Source: Candidatus Altarchaeota archaeon
GTDB lineage: Archaea > SpSt-1190
Length of the DNA stretch: 7,541 nucleotides
Assembly: GCA_030590165.1 (NCBI GenBank)
Contig: JAUUZA010000032.1
Location: forward strand, 1 to 7,541
Direction: 5' to 3'
Shown: positions 1-7,541 of the stretch, piece by piece
Layout: each line of letters starts with the position of its first letter
How positions within the stretch are numbered: the first letter of the stretch is position 1
The notes under the pieces: generated by a model
Database searches by the model: none
Told to the model about the DNA's origin: nothing
The model's input: the letters and a program-made list of their open reading frames with translations, nothing else
Translations under genes and position numbers: made by a program

Positions 1-1805
1 TAAAAACTTTAACAGACCAAGTAAAAGCCGGAGGTGTTCTGAAATTTGAAGTAACTATACTCAATATGGGTGGAACCGAAACAGTCGAAGACATAATAAT
101 AAATTATTCAGTCAGGGCTTTAGACGGTTCAGATACTTTAATTACTCTTGAAAGTGAAACTGTCGCGGTTGAAAATTTACTTAGATTTAATAGAGATGTA
201 ACCATACCAAAAAATTCACCAGAAGGTCGATATGTAATTGAAGTTGTGGCCAGTTATTGGTATGGAAGAAAATGGGCTACAAGTTCAGATAGTTTTGAAG
301 TAGATTTTGAACCAGCTCCACTTACTGCATTTAAAGCCGTTGTCAATTGGTGGGTCAGTTGGATAATCTTCTTCATACTTATTCCTAGTGGATTCTTCGG
401 TTTCAAATACTTTAAGAAATGGAGAGCAACAAAGAGTGAAAAACAAAGATATTCACTTCCAATTGATATGAATGAATTACCGAAGAAAGGCGGAAGTTCC
501 GTTAAGATTGGACGCATTGCAGAAACTGATGTAGAAGCTTGGTTTGACCTTGATGACCTTACAACTCACGCAATTGTTGCAGGTGCAACAGGTTCAGGTA
601 AATCTGTTTCTGCACAAGTAATTACTGAAGAAGCATTATTACAAAATAAAGCTGTAGTAGTCTTTGACCCAACTGCACAATGGAGTGGTTTCCTCGCTCC
701 AAATAGAGATAAGAAAATGCTCAAAACTTATCCTGGATTTAATTTAACTGAAGCCGATTCACGTTCATTCAAAGGTTTAATTTTAGAAATTACAGACCCA
801 GCACAAATTGAAAGTATTGACTTCAAACAATGGATTAGACCTGGGGAAATTACAGTATTCACTCTTAACAAACTCACTACTGCACAATTTGATGGTGCAA
901 TCAGAAACGTAATATCTACTTTCTTCAAACAAGTTTGGGAAGAAAGCTCAGAATTAAAAGTTCTAATCATCTTTGACGAAGTCCACAGATTACTCGAGAA
1001 ATACGGCGGTCTAGGTGGATATATTTCACTTGAAAAAGCAGCTCGTGAATTCCGTAAGTGGGGTCTTGGATTGATGGTTATTTCACAGGTATTAAGCGAC
1101 TTCAAAGAAGCAGTTAAAGGTAACGTACTATTTGAAGTCCAAATGCACACTAAAGGTTCAGATATTGAAAGAGTTAGGTCTAAATATGGAGATGACTTTG
1201 CAGCACGCCTTATCCGTCAGGAAATAGGTGTAGGTTTCTTACAAAATCCAAAATATAATAGAGGTAAACCTTGGTTCGTTCAATTTAGACCTTTACTCCA
1301 CAGTCCGCATAAACTTTTGGAAGAAGAACTTGAAACTTATAAGCGTCTAGGTGCTCTTATTTGGGCTATACGGGACAAGCTTAATATCATGAAAGCTAAA
1401 GGAACAAATGTCGGTGATATTGAACTTGAACTTAAACTTGCAGAAGATAAACTTAAGACTGGTGCTTTCCGTATGGCTGAAATCTATCTTGATGGACTCA
1501 AAAAGAGAGTAGGAGTAAGTGGAAAAGCACCAACACCACAAAAAAGTAAGTCATCAAATGAGGAAACATCAGCAGAAGAAACTAAAACTGATGAAACTAA
1601 AGTAGAAGAAACTAAAGTCGGAGAAGATAAACAAACAAAACCAAAGAGGATTTCAAGCAGTAAAAAGAAAAGTAAAGGAAAATCTAAAAAAACAGTGAAG
1701 AAATCACACTCAACTGGAAAAAAGAAAGGAGTTAAACCTAAAAAAACAAAGAAACACAGTGCGAAAAAGAAAATAAAGAAAGGAAAAAAAGGTAAGAAAA
1801 AATGA
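1..1805 (+). CDS. Membrane-anchored HerA/DUF87-type ATPase with extracellular CARDB-like domain (5'-partial)
   Basis: The frame is open from the left edge: the first complete codon is at base 3 and 600 residues are visible (numbered from there). ATG at 66 is internal, because the 21 codons before it complete a beta-sandwich pattern (AGG-x-L-x-F-x-V ... NMG). Order: CARDB-like domain about 1-101, assumed extracellular; one membrane span about 112-134 followed by a Lys/Arg-rich stop-transfer segment; RecA-fold motor with Walker A GATGSGKS at 194-201, FDP at 221-223, Walker B VLIIFDE at 320-326 and a polar ISQ motif at 360-362; helical module about 466-503; acidic stretch 518-541; Lys-rich tail 548-600. 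The P-loop resembles HerA/VirD4-type hexameric pumps, which move DNA or protein. The membrane anchor, ectodomain and absence of an adjacent nurA argue against classical HerA end resection. The substrate is unknown. The signal peptide or first span must lie left of the window. No cysteine is visible. It overlaps the next gene by ATGA. Confidence 0.9.
   Translation, partial: KTLTDQVKAGGVLKFEVTILNMGGTETVEDIIINYSVRALDGSDTLITLESETVAVENLLRFNRDVTIPKNSPEGRYVIEVVASYWYGRKWATSSDSFEVDFEPAPLTAFKAVVNWWVSWIIFFILIPSGFFGFKYFKKWRATKSEKQRYSLPIDMNELPKKGGSSVKIGRIAETDVEAWFDLDDLTTHAIVAGATGSGKSVSAQVITEEALLQNKAVVVFDPTAQWSGFLAPNRDKKMLKTYPGFNLTEADSRSFKGLILEITDPAQIESIDFKQWIRPGEITVFTLNKLTTAQFDGAIRNVISTFFKQVWEESSELKVLIIFDEVHRLLEKYGGLGGYISLEKAAREFRKWGLGLMVISQVLSDFKEAVKGNVLFEVQMHTKGSDIERVRSKYGDDFAARLIRQEIGVGFLQNPKYNRGKPWFVQFRPLLHSPHKLLEEELETYKRLGALIWAIRDKLNIMKAKGTNVGDIELELKLAEDKLKTGAFRMAEIYLDGLKKRVGVSGKAPTPQKSKSSNEETSAEETKTDETKVEETKVGEDKQTKPKRISSSKKKSKGKSKKTVKKSHSTGKKKGVKPKKTKKHSAKKKIKKGKKGKKK
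1578..1622 (+). repeat. Three 15-base tandem repeats encoding an E-T-K pentapeptide
   Basis: Three imperfect 15-base units, each beginning GAAACTAAA (1578, 1593, 1608), encode ETKTD, ETKVE and ETKVG in the acidic linker between the ATPase core and the Lys-rich tail. The period keeps frame, so unit gain or loss would change linker length without breaking the gene. Confidence 0.75.
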
Positions 1806-2515
1806 AAACTAAATTAATACTCTTGTTTTTGTTAATGAATGTATTCGCACTTAGCCTTAGTCATGATGCTGAAGTTTTAATCATCCCAGGAGAAACCCAT
1901 ATAATTAATGTAGTTGCACTCGAAAATAAAAGTATTACTTATGGAATTACTTGTCAATCTGAATTGCAAACTAAGTGTCCCTCTTATATACACTTAATTT
2001 CAGATAAAGAAACCAAAATACCAATTGAAGTTACTGCTAATTTACGCGGTGTTTATCCCTTAGATTTAATAATAAATAATGAAAGGTCAACCATATTCAT
2101 AATTTCAGCCAATCAAACGCGCGTCTTTTATGATAATTTAAAAGCATATGAAAATAATTTTGAAATTCTTAAACTTAAACACGGTGAACATCCTTTAATT
2201 GAAAAAGGGTTTATTTTAGTTGAGAGTGGATGGAACTTATATTATTCAAAAGATTATATGCCAATTAATCAAATTTTTAGTGAATTACAAAGAACGGTGA
2301 ATGAATATTATGAAATTTTAAAACAAAAGAATAATGAAATTGAGTTTGAAGAAACTCAAACTATAAAACTCGGAAACGCACTTTTTCCACTCTTAATTCT
2401 TGGTCTTCTTGCTTTCTTAACTTTCAAAAAGAAAAAAGAAAAAACGAACACCCCAGATATTAATGAAATAAAAAAGCTTGTTATAACTGAATTTGGAGGT
2501 CAGAACAATGGTTAA
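1802..2515 (+). CDS. Small type I membrane protein with signal peptide, unknown family
   Basis: I do not recognise a family for this 237-residue protein. Residues 1-20 look like a signal peptide (MKTK, a Leu-rich core, then SLS-H). Residues 22-150 are mostly short beta-type segments with a close cysteine pair (C51, C59) that could form a disulfide, and with sequons NKS (42) and NQT (104). Residues 152-186 look helical and may form a coiled coil. A membrane span lies at about 190-208, followed by KKKK and a cytosolic tail of about 27 residues containing INEIKKLV. The predicted topology is N-terminus outside, C-terminus inside. The start overlaps the ATPase stop as ATGA, and an AGGT at 1790-1793 gives only a weak ribosome binding site, so translation is probably coupled. 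Its position between the ATPase and the coiled-coil protein suggests a membrane partner of both; this is inference. Confidence 0.85.
   Translation: MKTKLILLFLLMNVFALSLSHDAEVLIIPGETHIINVVALENKSITYGITCQSELQTKCPSYIHLISDKETKIPIEVTANLRGVYPLDLIINNERSTIFIISANQTRVFYDNLKAYENNFEILKLKHGEHPLIEKGFILVESGWNLYYSKDYMPINQIFSELQRTVNEYYEILKQKNNEIEFEETQTIKLGNALFPLLILGLLAFLTFKKKKEKTNTPDINEIKKLVITEFGGQNNG
2495..2500 (+). promoter_or_regulatory. Perfect Shine-Dalgarno GGAGGT that decides the coiled-coil gene start
   Basis: GGAGGT lies seven bases before ATG at 2508 and inside the last codons of the preceding gene. A possible TTG start at 2493 in the same frame overlaps the motif itself and has no upstream ribosome binding site, so ATG 2508 is the better start. 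It is the only strong ribosome binding site I see in the window. Confidence 0.85.
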
Positions 2516-3911
2516 AAAAATAAAAAAAACACCTAAGAAAAAAACCACACGTGGTGGGGAAAGAACAAAAAAACAAACTGTAAAAAAAAGAGCGATTAAA
2601 AAAACAACAAGCAAGAGAGTTAAAACAAAAACTAGAAAAACCCCAGCAAGGAAACCATCAAAGAAGGGAGAAGAAAAGGTGAAAAAGATAATGACTGAAA
2701 CTCCAGACACTGAAGAGGAAACTACACAAGAAGAAACTCAAAAAGAAGAAGGCACCATAGGAGATATAATGAAGGCTGAAGGTTTAGTTACTGAACCAGA
2801 CAGAGAATCAATGTTAAAGTCCCAATCAACACCAAAACTTTCTGAAATTACTATGAAAATAGATCGTATTAGTGGTAAACTTGAATTATTCAAAGGAATG
2901 CTTGATTCATTCAGTGAAAGAATTCTTGATATGAATGAAAGATTAGGGGATACAAGACGAATGGTTTTCGAAAGAGAAAAAACATCTTCAAAAATTGAAA
3001 CTCGTTTTGATAAGGTTGAAACCATAGTAAAAGACTTAGACCCTGAAATAATTGTACTAAGATTTGAAAAATTCAAAGCCTCAATAGATAAACAAAATTC
3101 AAATTTAGAAAGAATTAAAGAACTTCTAACAAATGTTAGTGACCGTTTGAACATTACTGAAAAAAAACTTTCAAAAATAAAAAGTATAGACAATATTGTG
3201 AATGCAGGAAAAATTGTTGAAGAAAAAATTAAAACTATTGAAGACACAAAAAAATATTCAGATAAAATGGCTTCAAAAGTTGAAGCCATGTTTTTAGGAG
3301 TAAATGAAAAAATAAGTGGCCTTACTGAAATTCTAAACAAAATAGATAAAAATGATGTCATACTCCAAGATTCTTTAAAAGATATTGATAAAATTAGGTT
3401 TCAAATAGATGAAGACCTTGTAAAAAAGAAACAAATTGATTCTCTTATAGATTCAGTAAAAGATATTATAGTCGAAGAAGTTGTAGGTATCAATCCTGTT
3501 GCTTTTGATAATTTAAGACGTCGTATATCTTTATTAGAGAATAAAACCAAGACACCCCAAATGTTAGAGGGAGAAAAAAAGAAATTAATACTACTTTCTG
3601 ACCAAATAGAAAGAGACTATCAAATGGGACGTTTAAACAAAGACAGTTATTCTGAAATTAAAAAAAGTATTGAAAAAAAAGTAAATGAAATTGAAATGGT
3701 AAGTGAACGAAAAAGTAAACGAAATAAATCTAATAAACCACCTCAAGTAATTACCACAAAAATTAAAACTAAACTTAGTGAACTTTCAAATGATGAAGAT
3801 AAAGAAAAACCTGAAGATGGAAAAAAAGTAATACGACAGGAAAAAAGAAAAAAGAAAAGGGGACTAACAAAATTAAAAGAAGAATTATTAAAACAAACAA
3901 GAAAAAAATAA
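2508..3911 (+). CDS. Cytosolic coiled-coil protein with Lys-rich ends and a SHOCT-like motif
   Basis: This 467-residue protein has no signal peptide, membrane span or cysteine. Residues 1-60 are extremely Lys/Arg-rich and probably disordered. Residues 63-82 form an acidic Glu/Thr block. Residues 112-350 are long charged helices with heptad-like spacing. Within them, ERLGDTRRMVFEREK (144-158) and SDKMASKVEAMF (251-262) resemble, from memory, recurring segments of uncharacterised archaeal coiled-coil proteins. Residues 366-391 hold a short helical-hairpin motif (Y-x-x-G-x-L, then SEIKK) like SHOCT domains. The C-terminus (439-467) is again basic. It starts inside the end of the preceding gene with an 8-base overlap, so expression is probably coupled to the membrane genes upstream. 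A plausible role is a cytosolic scaffold or linker; basic ends could bind nucleic acid or an acidic partner. Archaellum FlaC/D/E proteins are also coiled-coil but their diagnostic motif is not seen. Confidence 0.85.
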   Translation: MVKKIKKTPKKKTTRGGERTKKQTVKKRAIKKTTSKRVKTKTRKTPARKPSKKGEEKVKKIMTETPDTEEETTQEETQKEEGTIGDIMKAEGLVTEPDRESMLKSQSTPKLSEITMKIDRISGKLELFKGMLDSFSERILDMNERLGDTRRMVFEREKTSSKIETRFDKVETIVKDLDPEIIVLRFEKFKASIDKQNSNLERIKELLTNVSDRLNITEKKLSKIKSIDNIVNAGKIVEEKIKTIEDTKKYSDKMASKVEAMFLGVNEKISGLTEILNKIDKNDVILQDSLKDIDKIRFQIDEDLVKKKQIDSLIDSVKDIIVEEVVGINPVAFDNLRRRISLLENKTKTPQMLEGEKKKLILLSDQIERDYQMGRLNKDSYSEIKKSIEKKVNEIEMVSERKSKRNKSNKPPQVITTKIKTKLSELSNDEDKEKPEDGKKVIRQEKRKKKRGLTKLKEELLKQTRKK

Positions 3912-3927
3912 ATTACTTTAATAATTT
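3902..3927 (-). terminator. Candidate terminator of the minus-strand surface-protein gene
   Basis: Reading the minus strand, the same A/T-only hairpin (3922-3927 with 3910-3915) is followed by seven T's (plus-strand A's 3902-3908), just after the TAA stop at 3915-3913. The T-run is made by the terminal Lys codons of the opposing coiled-coil gene. This gives one shared bidirectional element; stem stability is low. Confidence 0.4.
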
Positions 3928-3930
3928 TTT
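3910..3930 (+). terminator. Candidate terminator of the plus-strand operon
   Basis: An A/T-only inverted repeat pairs 3910-3915 with 3922-3927 around a six-base loop and runs into six T's at 3925-3930. Archaeal termination often needs only a T-run. The stem is weak, and the T-run is also the Lys-Lys codons near the end of the convergent gene. Predicted from sequence only. Confidence 0.4.
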
Positions 3931-6900
3931 CAATTCTTCAAAAGTTTCTCTTGAAAGCATACCCTCTTCATATTGATGCTTCACGGTTTCAAAAACACCT
4001 GATTCTGAACTGCTTTCTTTTGACCTTGCCAAAACATCTTTAATCTTAACTAAAGTTTTCTTTCTATCTTCACCTCTAAACTTCATAAGTTTCCTGACAA
4101 CCAATAAAATAAGAATTGCAAGAGCCATTAAAGAAAAACCAATCACATACCAATTAGAAGGAATATCTGTAATTTGAGGTGCTACAAATGGTCTTGGTCT
4201 TTCAAGTTCAAGTAAATATTTCACTTCTTCCATCACGGTTTCAACATCTGAAATTGTTTTTATAGCATCAACTGTCTTGTCTTCCTCAAGATATAATTCA
4301 GCAATATCTAAAAATTCTCTTGATTTTCTTAAAAGTGAAAGAATCTTTGTAACATCAGAACCTCTTGCTGCTGCAGTTCCCGCCCTATCTTCCAAATCAA
4401 GAAGTTCACTCCTTAAAGAGGTAATTTTTGCACGTAATGCGGCCTCTTGCGTCTTAAAAACAATTATTTTATAAAATTCATATTCCTCAATTTCTTTTGA
4501 TATTATTTTCATTTTAGAAACATAAGTGCGAGCATCGGCATCTAGAGGAACTTCAAATTTAACAACGAGATATCCACTCGACCCTTGACCAAGACTAGGT
4601 AAAGCCCTAACAACTTCAAACCAATCTCTTTCAATATCTTCAAAAAAGACAGTTATATCATTCAAAGGAACATTTCCTGTATTCTTCACTTCAATTGTTA
4701 AATAACCAATTGACCCCCTATTCACTATCATTTCTTCAGGAAATTTATTTGTAATAGTAAGTTCAATAACTGCAGCCTCAACAGGAATTATTATGTCAGG
4801 AATTATTGGTTCTTCCTCTTCCTCAGCTTCAATAACTTTAAATGTTCTATACACTTCTATTGGGGGATTTATTGTTGAATAATTAAGTTTAACATGAAGA
4901 CTATAATCTCCTTCTGCTTGATTTGAATATATGGGTAAATTTCTACTTATTGATATATTTCCTCCTGCTGAAACAAAAACAGCTTCACCTGCAACTTCAG
5001 CAAATTTTGTTCCAGCAGTATTTTCAACCCAATAAGACAAAAAGACATCCTGACTAAAATCACCCATATTCATCAAAAACACATCAAAATCAATATTAGT
5101 GCTGGGGGGTACTTCCGCCTCCAAAGAACTTATCACTACATCAAATGGACCACCATAACTAACTCTAAACGACTGAAGTTTTTGAGTTTGACGCCCACCT
5201 TCTGTAATAACTAAATTTGCTAAATAATATCCAACAGGTGATGCTGCCGCCATTGCATGACTTTTAATATAAATCTTACTTGTATTTGTTGTATTCAAAA
5301 CATTAAATGATGTGGATTCAAAATATATTTCTTGAGCTGGGTCAAATACAGTTAATTTAATTTCATCAGGTTCTTGAAAATCACGGTCAGTGTATACTAA
5401 AACATAAAAATTCATAACAGAATCGGGATACCAAATTAAACTGGTTTCAAAATCTACATTATACATTTCTCGAACTTTAAAAATATATGTTGTGTTATGT
5501 GTAGAAGTTTTATTCACAATTTCATCATAATGTGTTGAATTCACTTCTAAAATATAATCTCCCAAGGGTGCATCACTTGGAATTGTGAATGAAGGGATTT
5601 GTAAAATTGTTCCTTCATATGAAAAATTTTCATGATATCTTAAATCTCCCTGTGAATCAAATAAAGATACTCCTGAAAAAGTTGTAATATATGTTCCTCC
5701 TGTATTAGTTGCATTAAGATATAATGACGCAGTTTCACCCGCAAAATATGTTGAAAAAGGTGTTTCCACTACAACTTTTAATTTTGGGTAAACATACAGT
5801 GAAACATTTTCATATGAAAACAAGCCAAGGTTGTCTTTAGACATTACTTGAAAGGTGTAATTCCCAAAAACCACGTTTGACCCCCATGAACCCGGGTGAT
5901 TTTGAGCAAAAACATACAAATTTCCGTCAAGATCTATTAAACTCATATTAATTTCATCAGTAGTATTATCTGGTTTGAAAACCGTTAAGGTAGTATATTC
6001 TATCCCTGTATTAGATTTATCAGTAACATTTGCTTCAATGTAAACACTATCCAACTCTTCAATAATATATGAGGAAAGAGTTACATTTATTTCAGCAAGT
6101 TCAGCGGGGATTAAATTAAGTGTAATTTGGTCTAAAACAGGTAATGAATCCAAACCAGACATATCATATGTAGCGTTATAATAATCCCTTGCTTCTCCCG
6201 TAACATTCCAAAAAAATGAAATTGGATAATCTTCTTGTTTTTGAATTATAAAATTAGTAATATTCACATATGTAAAATTCACTTCGTCTGGAGAAATTGT
6301 AAAGTTTATTTCAGCATTACCAGTATTATTAATAAAAACATCACAAACTTTTCCTTCATCTAAAGCCATTGGAACTGAACAATTACTTGGAGTAAATTCC
6401 CATGTTCTTGATGTTGGAACTGAAATGTTGAGTGAAATTAAATCAAAACCCCCATTTGTACTTGAAGTATTCAAAGTTCCTGAATAATTTCCAGGGGTGT
6501 ATCCTAAAGGAACCGTAATATTCACTTTTACATCAATCTCTGACCCCAAGGGTAAAACTACTACCACTGGATCTGGGGTCATTGAAAAATCATCAATCCC
6601 CGATTCAGCCATCGTAATCCCTAAAATTTGGATGTTCCCAATATTTCTAAGTGTAAAATTTCCTAAAAGATTATTTTCTCCATGATTAATTGTACCATTA
6701 ACATAATTTTCATCAGTACCAAATAAAGGATTACTTTGAACTTGAACTGTTATTATAGTTGTATTATACGAAATTCCCATCCCTGGATTTATCCAAGAAA
6801 CATTTGCAGTTACATTATATTCACCTGGAATACTTTTTGTGAGCGCCAATTCAAAAGTAGTATTGCATTGACCATCAACTAAAATATTACCACAAGAAAA

Positions 6901-7541
6901 CATATTATTTGTTCTATTCGTTATCCAAAAAGTTTCAGGAAGTTCTAAAGTAATGTTTGTTGAAACTGCTGTTGATGAACCTGAATTTGAAACATTAACA
7001 AAAAGTGAAAAATTCTCATATTCAAACCATCTCATATTCGTTGAATTTATTAAAGAAATATTGGTTGATATGTGAAGAAAAGTTTCCATAATACTTATAC
7101 TCAAATGTAAACTATCATTACCCCCATTAACAGACGTAATATTCAAAGTCCCATTAAATACGCCTCTTTCATGGTCCTCAGCCAGAAAAACTAATATTTC
7201 TACTGACTGATTTTCTCCATTAAAAATTGAAGATATATTATTTGGTGTAAAATTAAAAGTCATTGTTGGAATCCCAGTCAAATTAAAAGTTGTGTTGATA
7301 ACTGGAAAATTACCAATTGAAGACACAGTAAAATTACCAAGTGAATTCCAAACTCCAGGAGTAACTACTTCTATTTTTTCAGTTTCAGGAACATAAAGAA
7401 TTGCGTTTTCCTCAACAGATATATTTAAAGTAAAATTTTGTGAATTAGTTGAATCATCTGAATTTCTCCAAACAACAGTTGAATTCAGGTTTTTTATTCC
7501 AACAGTTTCATTAGCAGAAATTTCAATTTCAAAAAAGTTAA
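3913..7541 (-). CDS. Giant N-sequon-rich surface protein with CARDB/NEW3-type domains and C-terminal membrane anchor (5'-partial)
   Basis: The frame runs off the right edge; 1208 residues are visible, numbered from the first complete codon (7539-7537). GTG at 7326 lies inside a repeated LGNFTV motif and is not a credible start. Domains: repeat A 67-150; beta-sandwich about 165-268 with C216/C225; repeat B 292-373; a related domain about 378-478 with C387/C399; two Ig-like domains about 483-690; a further beta domain about 691-795; CARDB-like 799-902, related to the ATPase ectodomain; acidic-Pro linker 904-921; NEW3-like domain about 924-1029; helical stalk 1030-1112; membrane span about 1129-1150; cytosolic tail ending in a SHOCT-like motif (1186-1208). 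I count 51 Asn-X-Ser/Thr sequons, all before residue 889. It is probably a type I surface or adhesin-like protein embedded in or replacing an S-layer. Ligand unknown. It converges on the operon with one base between stops. Confidence 0.88.
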   Translation of the reverse strand, partial: NFFEIEISANETVGIKNLNSTVVWRNSDDSTNSQNFTLNISVEENAILYVPETEKIEVVTPGVWNSLGNFTVSSIGNFPVINTTFNLTGIPTMTFNFTPNNISSIFNGENQSVEILVFLAEDHERGVFNGTLNITSVNGGNDSLHLSISIMETFLHISTNISLINSTNMRWFEYENFSLFVNVSNSGSSTAVSTNITLELPETFWITNRTNNMFSCGNILVDGQCNTTFELALTKSIPGEYNVTANVSWINPGMGISYNTTIITVQVQSNPLFGTDENYVNGTINHGENNLLGNFTLRNIGNIQILGITMAESGIDDFSMTPDPVVVVLPLGSEIDVKVNITVPLGYTPGNYSGTLNTSSTNGGFDLISLNISVPTSRTWEFTPSNCSVPMALDEGKVCDVFINNTGNAEINFTISPDEVNFTYVNITNFIIQKQEDYPISFFWNVTGEARDYYNATYDMSGLDSLPVLDQITLNLIPAELAEINVTLSSYIIEELDSVYIEANVTDKSNTGIEYTTLTVFKPDNTTDEINMSLIDLDGNLYVFAQNHPGSWGSNVVFGNYTFQVMSKDNLGLFSYENVSLYVYPKLKVVVETPFSTYFAGETASLYLNATNTGGTYITTFSGVSLFDSQGDLRYHENFSYEGTILQIPSFTIPSDAPLGDYILEVNSTHYDEIVNKTSTHNTTYIFKVREMYNVDFETSLIWYPDSVMNFYVLVYTDRDFQEPDEIKLTVFDPAQEIYFESTSFNVLNTTNTSKIYIKSHAMAAASPVGYYLANLVITEGGRQTQKLQSFRVSYGGPFDVVISSLEAEVPPSTNIDFDVFLMNMGDFSQDVFLSYWVENTAGTKFAEVAGEAVFVSAGGNISISRNLPIYSNQAEGDYSLHVKLNYSTINPPIEVYRTFKVIEAEEEEEPIIPDIIIPVEAAVIELTITNKFPEEMIVNRGSIGYLTIEVKNTGNVPLNDITVFFEDIERDWFEVVRALPSLGQGSSGYLVVKFEVPLDADARTYVSKMKIISKEIEEYEFYKIIVFKTQEAALRAKITSLRSELLDLEDRAGTAAARGSDVTKILSLLRKSREFLDIAELYLEEDKTVDAIKTISDVETVMEEVKYLLELERPRPFVAPQITDIPSNWYVIGFSLMALAILILLVVRKLMKFRGEDRKKTLVKIKDVLARSKESSSESGVFETVKHQYEEGMLSRETFEELKKLLK
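6421..6666 (-). repeat. Surface-protein internal repeat B (protein-level)
   Basis: Residues 292-373 repeat the landmarks of unit A: LGNFT, IGN, GI, a VP segment, then GTLN-x-S-S-x-NGG-x-D and IS. The two units are separated by a different cysteine-bearing domain. A third, degenerate relative may lie at about residues 399-477 (NNTGN start, YYNATYDMSG in place of the GTLN segment). Confidence 0.7.
7090..7341 (-). repeat. Surface-protein internal repeat A (protein-level)
   Basis: Residues 67-150 of the surface protein begin LGNFT, then IGN, a GI turn, and end with GTLN-x-x-S-x-NGG-x-D before an IS strand. The same landmarks in the same order recur in repeat B. It is a beta-sandwich unit of the NEW3/CARDB type. 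Similarity is clear at protein level, less so in DNA. Confidence 0.7.

Follow-up and report, generated by a model that had tools for sequence, protein, structure and literature searches.

What does a HerA-class ATPase do when it is anchored in the cell membrane beneath a surface domain? The question is raised by a 7,541 bp archaeal contig (G000:C45), both ends of which are cut and the whole of which was analysed here as "the window". Its source assembly is 0.72 Mb in size and 88% complete, and the closest named relatives are Ca. Altiarchaeota DPANNHV_H2.bin.121 (G005/L056) and archaeon SpSt-1190 (G001/L057). The window is occupied by four reading frames, three on the plus strand (ORF1 to ORF3) and one on the minus strand, the outer two running past the contig ends. 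Judging from its sequence, ORF1 almost certainly encodes the part of a SPEARE-type giant surface protein that lies next to the membrane, together with its cytosolic end, a HerA-class ATPase in which the catalytic motifs are intact. The coiled-coil protein encoded by ORF3 and a companion surface protein of about 1,900 amino acids (aa), the end of which is encoded on the minus strand, probably work with this ATPase: the linkage of the genes is observed, and it suggests a complex of their products.

The cytosolic end of a giant surface protein

ORF1 (positions 3-1805, plus strand) codes for the C-terminal 600 residues of this SPEARE-type giant, which include the cytosolic HerA-class ATPase, and its 5' end is open at the contig edge. 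It matches residues 4703-5212 of an ORF of more than 5,258 aa in G005 with 73% identity, and other giant homologues measure 8,880 aa (G027), 7,934 aa (G023) and 11,259 aa (G055), several more being about 2,200-3,100 aa long. Most of the complete giants have an N-terminal hydrophobic segment and a transmembrane (TM) segment immediately ahead of the motor. Since ORF1 is open at the contig edge and its homologues are giant, it presumably lacks thousands of ectodomain residues. What is left of the ectodomain is its final domain, a predicted Ig-like beta sandwich (aa 6-101; positions 18-305) with a pLDDT mostly of 75-92 in the AlphaFold2 model. This is followed by a single TM segment with a basic cytosolic flank (about aa 109-134; 327-404), recognised from hydropathy and flanking charge and modelled as a helix at residues 117-147, then by the RecA/HerA-class motor domain (aa 165-438; 495-1316) and by a three-helix C-terminal region (aa 440-503; 1320-1511) that is conserved in the alignments and present in the model. 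The ORF1 model (pLDDT 88) shows this order of sandwich, TM helix, RecA-type motor and three-helix region. Composition and comparison with homologues set apart a lysine-rich tail (1518-1802; 36 lysines in 95 residues) that most relatives lack. An earlier note on this DNA had described an outside domain, one TM span and a HerA-type motor, and this architecture stands, but the outside domain amounts to no more than the final Ig-like domain of a cut giant. As to the giant ectodomains of relatives, a Pfam search found no known domain in the 4,702 aa of the (itself incomplete) G005 ectodomain, and that of G055 carries Ig-type and MG2 domains. The G055 giant, from Aenigmatarchaeota bin DRTY-7_1_bin_34 (L035-L037, G055:C2:31316-65095), is an uninterrupted ORF of 11,259 aa without ambiguous bases and exceeds the 9,409 aa quoted for the largest protein of cultivated archaea.

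The fusion of such a motor to such an ectodomain was already known in 2019 and 2023, because one of the relatives is published: the giant of 8,880 aa (26,643 bp) is BNXNv_0298 of Ca. Nanohalovita haloferacivicina, and ORF1 is 43% identical to its end over 511 aa. Hamm et al. (2019) coined the name SPEARE, took the cytosolic domain for a type III restriction enzyme and pointed to similar sequences in Altiarchaeales, Aenigmarchaeota, Woesearchaeota and Micrarchaeota (PMC6642349). A 2023 paper covering BNXNv_0298 and SVXNc_0300 reassigned the domain as a VirB4/TraG-like ATPase and put forward the idea of secretion "straws" (PMC10266531). The original restriction-enzyme reading is explained by the ResIII match, which lies above its cut-off in ORF1 (23.7 bits against 22.5). 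The ATPase is thus not undescribed, as the earlier note had supposed, and corresponds to the cytosolic end of the SPEARE/giant surface proteins (PMC6642349, PMC10266531). ORF1 shares with these the conserved cytosolic ATPase domain (the BNXNv_0298 and ResIII matches) and the topology, with a TM near the C-terminus, the ATPase inside and the ectodomain outside (hydropathy and model); the giant ectodomain is here taken from relatives. The window differs in coming from an Altiarchaeota clade and in its linkage to a coiled-coil partner, a companion of about 1,900 aa and a small type I membrane protein, on which the available text of PMC6642349 and PMC10266531 is silent. Within the open-licence literature these partners are apparently undescribed, and a description elsewhere is possible.

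Both the sequence of the motor and its predicted fold place it in the HerA class. DUF87 scores 43.8 bits on ORF1 (cut-off 23.2), and the only solved structures matched by a 45-member family profile at E up to 1e-3 are HerA, the best being S. solfataricus HerA (4d2i, 5e-13). The same structure is the top VIA-align match (Z 25.1, 254 residues, 2.8 A), followed by T. kodakarensis HerA (Z 24.5), VirB4 (Z 23.4) and TrwB (Z 18.6). Invariant columns among 45 sequences mark Walker A (GATGSGKS, 582-605), Walker B (IIFDE, 966-980), an arginine-finger motif (REFRKWG, 1044-1064) and FDPTAQW (663-683), the latter being the family's own signature. Walker A, the Walker B glutamate and the RK(W/F)G arginine-finger motif line up with HerA and are invariant or nearly so in the family. 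The envelope machine on a HerA-class motor that the earlier note had proposed agrees with this fold and these motifs, as well as with the TM segment and outside domain.

Could ORF1 then be an ordinary HerA repair or anti-phage helicase that bears an accidental membrane domain? It shares the motor fold, the Walker motifs and the arginine finger with HerA of the HerA-NurA pair, and the PADLOC HerA models match it weakly. Nevertheless, it is membrane-anchored, its TM helix directly precedes the motor and the HAS barrel had no match in a Pfam scan at E up to 1. No NurA was found in the window or in the 88%-complete genome, in searches whose controls worked, as the earlier note had anticipated in judging the classical HerA-NurA role unfit. 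The other three window proteins had no PADLOC match, thus no HerA defence partner (SIR2, DUF4297, nuclease) was encountered, and the ectodomains that relatives carry on this motor are large and anchored in the membrane, many of them running to thousands of residues. Both HerA-NurA repair and anti-phage defence were rejected on the missing NurA and the missing PADLOC matches, and the accidental membrane domain can be given almost no probability. The genome does encode a second HerA-like ATPase of 652 aa (L055:8824-10782, G000:C14), which lies beside argS and ileS, without NurA, and scores well under the NCBIfam HerA cut-offs.

The 2023 proposal would instead make the protein a component of type IV secretion that injects effectors through the "straws" (PMC10266531). 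VirB4 is among the best fold matches, coupling-protein Pfam models weakly exceed their cut-offs on ORF1, and the succession of outside part, TM and motor resembles that of coupling proteins, the TM preceding the motor as in TrwB. Yet HerA ranks above both VirB4 and TrwB among the fold matches and accounts for all the sequence matches to solved structures, and the VirB4 N-terminal and all-alpha domains were not recognised. For the second Nanohalovita ATPase, BNXNv_0297, PMC10266531 reports a VirB4 N-terminal domain (PF03135), to which no match was obtained here at E up to 1. No other type IV secretion gene was recognised in the window by Pfam and NCBIfam scans, a genome-wide search not having been made. 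Such a role therefore seems quite unlikely. The part of BNXNv_0297 (L041:16416-18299, minus strand) that precedes its TM scores weakly against beta-sandwich models.

A third scenario starts from the dependence of DPANN archaea on outside nucleotides and would have the motor import host DNA at the contact site. The best NCBIfam match of ORF1 by E-value is indeed the DNA-import ATPase CedD (1e-11), which together with the weak HerA matches and the HerA-class fold would suit a scavenging role, as would the lysine-rich low-complexity stretches at the end of the ATPase (1518-1802) and at the start of the coiled-coil protein (2508-2825). However, the CedD match reaches 44.2 bits against a cut-off of 600, the clusters contain neither nuclease nor Ced genes, and the lysine-rich tails are not general in the family. 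Scavenging is accordingly a distinctly improbable explanation.

A coiled-coil partner and a companion with a shared tail

ORF3 (2508-3911, plus strand) encodes a protein of 467 aa without TM and with predicted long helices, in line with the cytosolic coiled-coil protein that the earlier note had recognised. Its model comprises a disordered lysine-rich start, a coiled-coil core of three long helices (aa 111-324; 2838-3479), also conserved in the alignment, and a SHOCT-like helical hairpin (aa 350-408; 3555-3731) common to the companion tail (E 3e-5 with the companion-tail profile). The counts that follow are drawn from metagenome bins, and the loci named are the best 80 of 309. A homologue of ORF3 lies within the next three genes of the ATPase, usually directly adjacent, in 77 of the 87 loci with at least 800 bp downstream, a tally made with a profile built from those same genes. 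Single-sequence searches with two members gave 76-80 matches, nearly all of them the gene adjoining the ATPase. Across 61 genomes, the coiled-coil protein occurs in all 13 that have the ATPase and in one of the 48 that do not (Fisher p 2e-12). In this lone exception (G004), the coiled-coil gene has a contig end immediately on its upstream side, and the companion gene stands in the expected place. A widespread occurrence of the ATPase without its two plus-strand neighbours, which the earlier note had regarded as telling against its reading, is thus seen for the small membrane protein and not for the coiled-coil protein, without which the ATPase is almost never found. A composition artefact was rejected as the source of the coiled-coil similarity: reversed and register-shuffled queries gave no match, and block-shuffled ones gave 0-4, probably fragments of their own source and near-identical copies, against the 76-80 real matches. 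An origin from the flagellar-accessory proteins ArlCDE was likewise rejected, those families not appearing in the set of 25 Pfam families matched by most members.

The minus-strand gene (3913-7539) converges on ORF3, its end lying one base past the end of the latter, and encodes the last 1,208 residues of the companion, a surface glycoprotein whose 5' end is cut. It has an orthologue of 1,886 aa in G005 (52% identity) and others in further phyla, these being about 1,700-2,000 aa when full-length or else contig-cut pieces. The 1,208 residues contain 51 N-glycosylation sequons and end in a single TM segment (aa 1130-1148; 4096-4152; hydropathy 2.63, basic inner flank) and a short cytosolic SHOCT-like tail (aa 1177-1208; 3916-4011), detected with a tail profile over 735 ORFs. 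The repeats of the companion ectodomain are related to those of the giants. Companion genes stand beside the ATPase/coiled-coil pair in Altiarchaeota, Aenigmatarchaeota, Micrarchaeota, Nanohaloarchaea, Woesearchaeota and Jingweiarchaeum, being present in 27 of 87 ATPase loci and in 25 of the 69 with at least 4 kb downstream; in G003 the companion lies near a contig end. Since orthologues of the convergent gene adjoin the pair, it belongs to the cassette, which does not stop after three genes as first proposed.

Because several genuine tails escaped a strict regular expression for the motif, a profile search was used. Built from the companion tails alone and run over the 735 ORFs, the profile recovered the companions and 42 of 79 coiled-coil proteins at E < 1e-3, and its other matches were only ORFs of the same clusters or duplicate copies of these loci. 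A hairpin common to the companion tail and the coiled-coil protein makes it probable that the two are in contact on the cytosolic side of the membrane, and thereby with the motor; among the sequence evidence, the shared tail is the best for such a contact.

A clade-specific membrane protein and other cluster genes

The plus-strand genes overlap as the earlier note had stated (3-1805, 1802-2515 and 2508-3911): ORF1 and ORF2 by 4 bases (ATGA at 1802), and ORF2 and ORF3 by 8 bases, the ATG of ORF3 (2508) lying inside the final 8 bases of ORF2. The gene order is not restricted to this genome, the four-gene set being kept in G005, G001 and L058, in the last with two small extra ORFs. ORF2 (1802-2515, plus strand) encodes the small type I membrane protein of 237 aa, with a signal-like N-terminus, a beta-rich ectodomain, a TM segment (aa 190-208) and a short basic tail. 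The earlier description as a small type I protein with a short cytosolic tail stands; a role as a general partner does not, since no homologues turned up beyond G005, G001 and locus L058 of Aenigmatarchaeota. The ATPases of the window and of these three form one strongly supported clade (99%) of the ATPase family tree, a quick reconstruction without bootstrap, and ORF2 is a clade-specific addition (4 of 4). In the same tree, the window clade joins the Nanohalovita-type branch, apart from the main companion-bearing branch. The presence of the companion thus marks no single clade, and its label requires 9 changes on the tree.

Several clusters contain other genes. A MinD/ParA-like ATPase gene stands within or beside those of L105 (6739-7530), L145 (10114-10890), L090, L118, L123 and G023, and on the opposite strand in L081 and L133; its product is a possible positioning factor. 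Paired small secreted or TM-anchored proteins lie beside the clusters of L038 (158-2605), L039 and L052, with related C-terminal strands ending like 'GTYTGTLTVKAV', and two that were checked against Pfam had no match. Loci L093 and L114, assigned to Heimdallarchaeota isolate YT1_048, are short contigs whose ATPases nest in Aenigmatarchaeota clades and are probably mis-binned.

A putative contact machine and its rivals

That these proteins together make up a SPEARE-type, ATP-driven cell-contact machine for translocation or traction has, in our view, about an even chance of being correct. Relatives of the motor (HerA, FtsK, VirB4/VirD4) pass DNA or protein through a ring. Six motor domains would likewise form a ring beneath the membrane, as in HerA and the conjugative coupling proteins, and the TM ahead of the motor would place this ring against the membrane. 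The giant arms and the companion would hold a partner cell or surface, ATP hydrolysis would drive a protein or DNA polymer through the ring and across the contact site, the coiled-coil rods would serve as cytosolic gatekeeper or cargo adaptor, and the small type I protein would have been added in the clade of the window. By analogy with the relatives, this sequence of events is plausible, if somewhat short of an even bet. In five loci (L041:16416-18299, minus strand, L097, L119, L127 and L129), the gene directly after the giant is another copy of the ATPase, shorter and TM-anchored; rings may therefore be mixed and need not show six giant arms. More tentatively, the giant motor, the coiled-coil rod and the companion could be the core of an archaeal contact nanomachine that is not yet described and is separate from both type IV pili and type IV secretion; a HerA ring bearing its own giant adhesive arms would pump a polymer between symbiont and host.

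The main rival is a mechanical tether or sensor, in which ATP would pull, stiffen or cluster the giant adhesin arms or signal contact, no cargo being moved, and the rods and MinD/ParA-like proteins would position the array. Very long ectodomains made of repeats and held by one TM, coiled-coil rods beneath the membrane and the MinD/ParA-like genes of some clusters would all suit a tether, the last of these fitting translocation equally well. Nevertheless, in the HerA/FtsK/VirB4 class the known members are movers of DNA or protein, and the invariant motor motifs would not be needed by a passive anchor; the tether thus appears rather unlikely, while being the rival to be taken most seriously. Several points weigh against the translocating machine. 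The clusters examined contain no recognisable channel or effector genes, and no substrate, pore or effector was identified. The companion is not beside every ATPase, none being near that of Nanohalovita. The tails of the coiled-coil and companion proteins resemble SHOCT (PF09851) as a short helical hairpin near or at the C-terminus, but lie under the curated cut-off, with 12.9 bits on a representative coiled-coil protein against 27 and a best member at E 0.0011. Finally, the structure prediction of ORF1 covers a monomer, and the full giant and companion architecture is borrowed from relatives, both genes being cut in the window.

The giant SPEARE proteins, surface proteins of tiny and often parasitic archaea, are the leading candidates in the question of how DPANN archaea grip and exploit their hosts. 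In published work, these are treated as stand-alone giants with a disputed cytosolic domain. With a coiled-coil partner, a second giant-class surface protein and a shared tail motif, the question would now be about a defined complex, and one that extends to the Altiarchaeota. The HerA-class assignment leads to testable predictions, namely a hexamer and a central channel. Together, these genes supply a parts list for what we infer to be a cell-contact machine.

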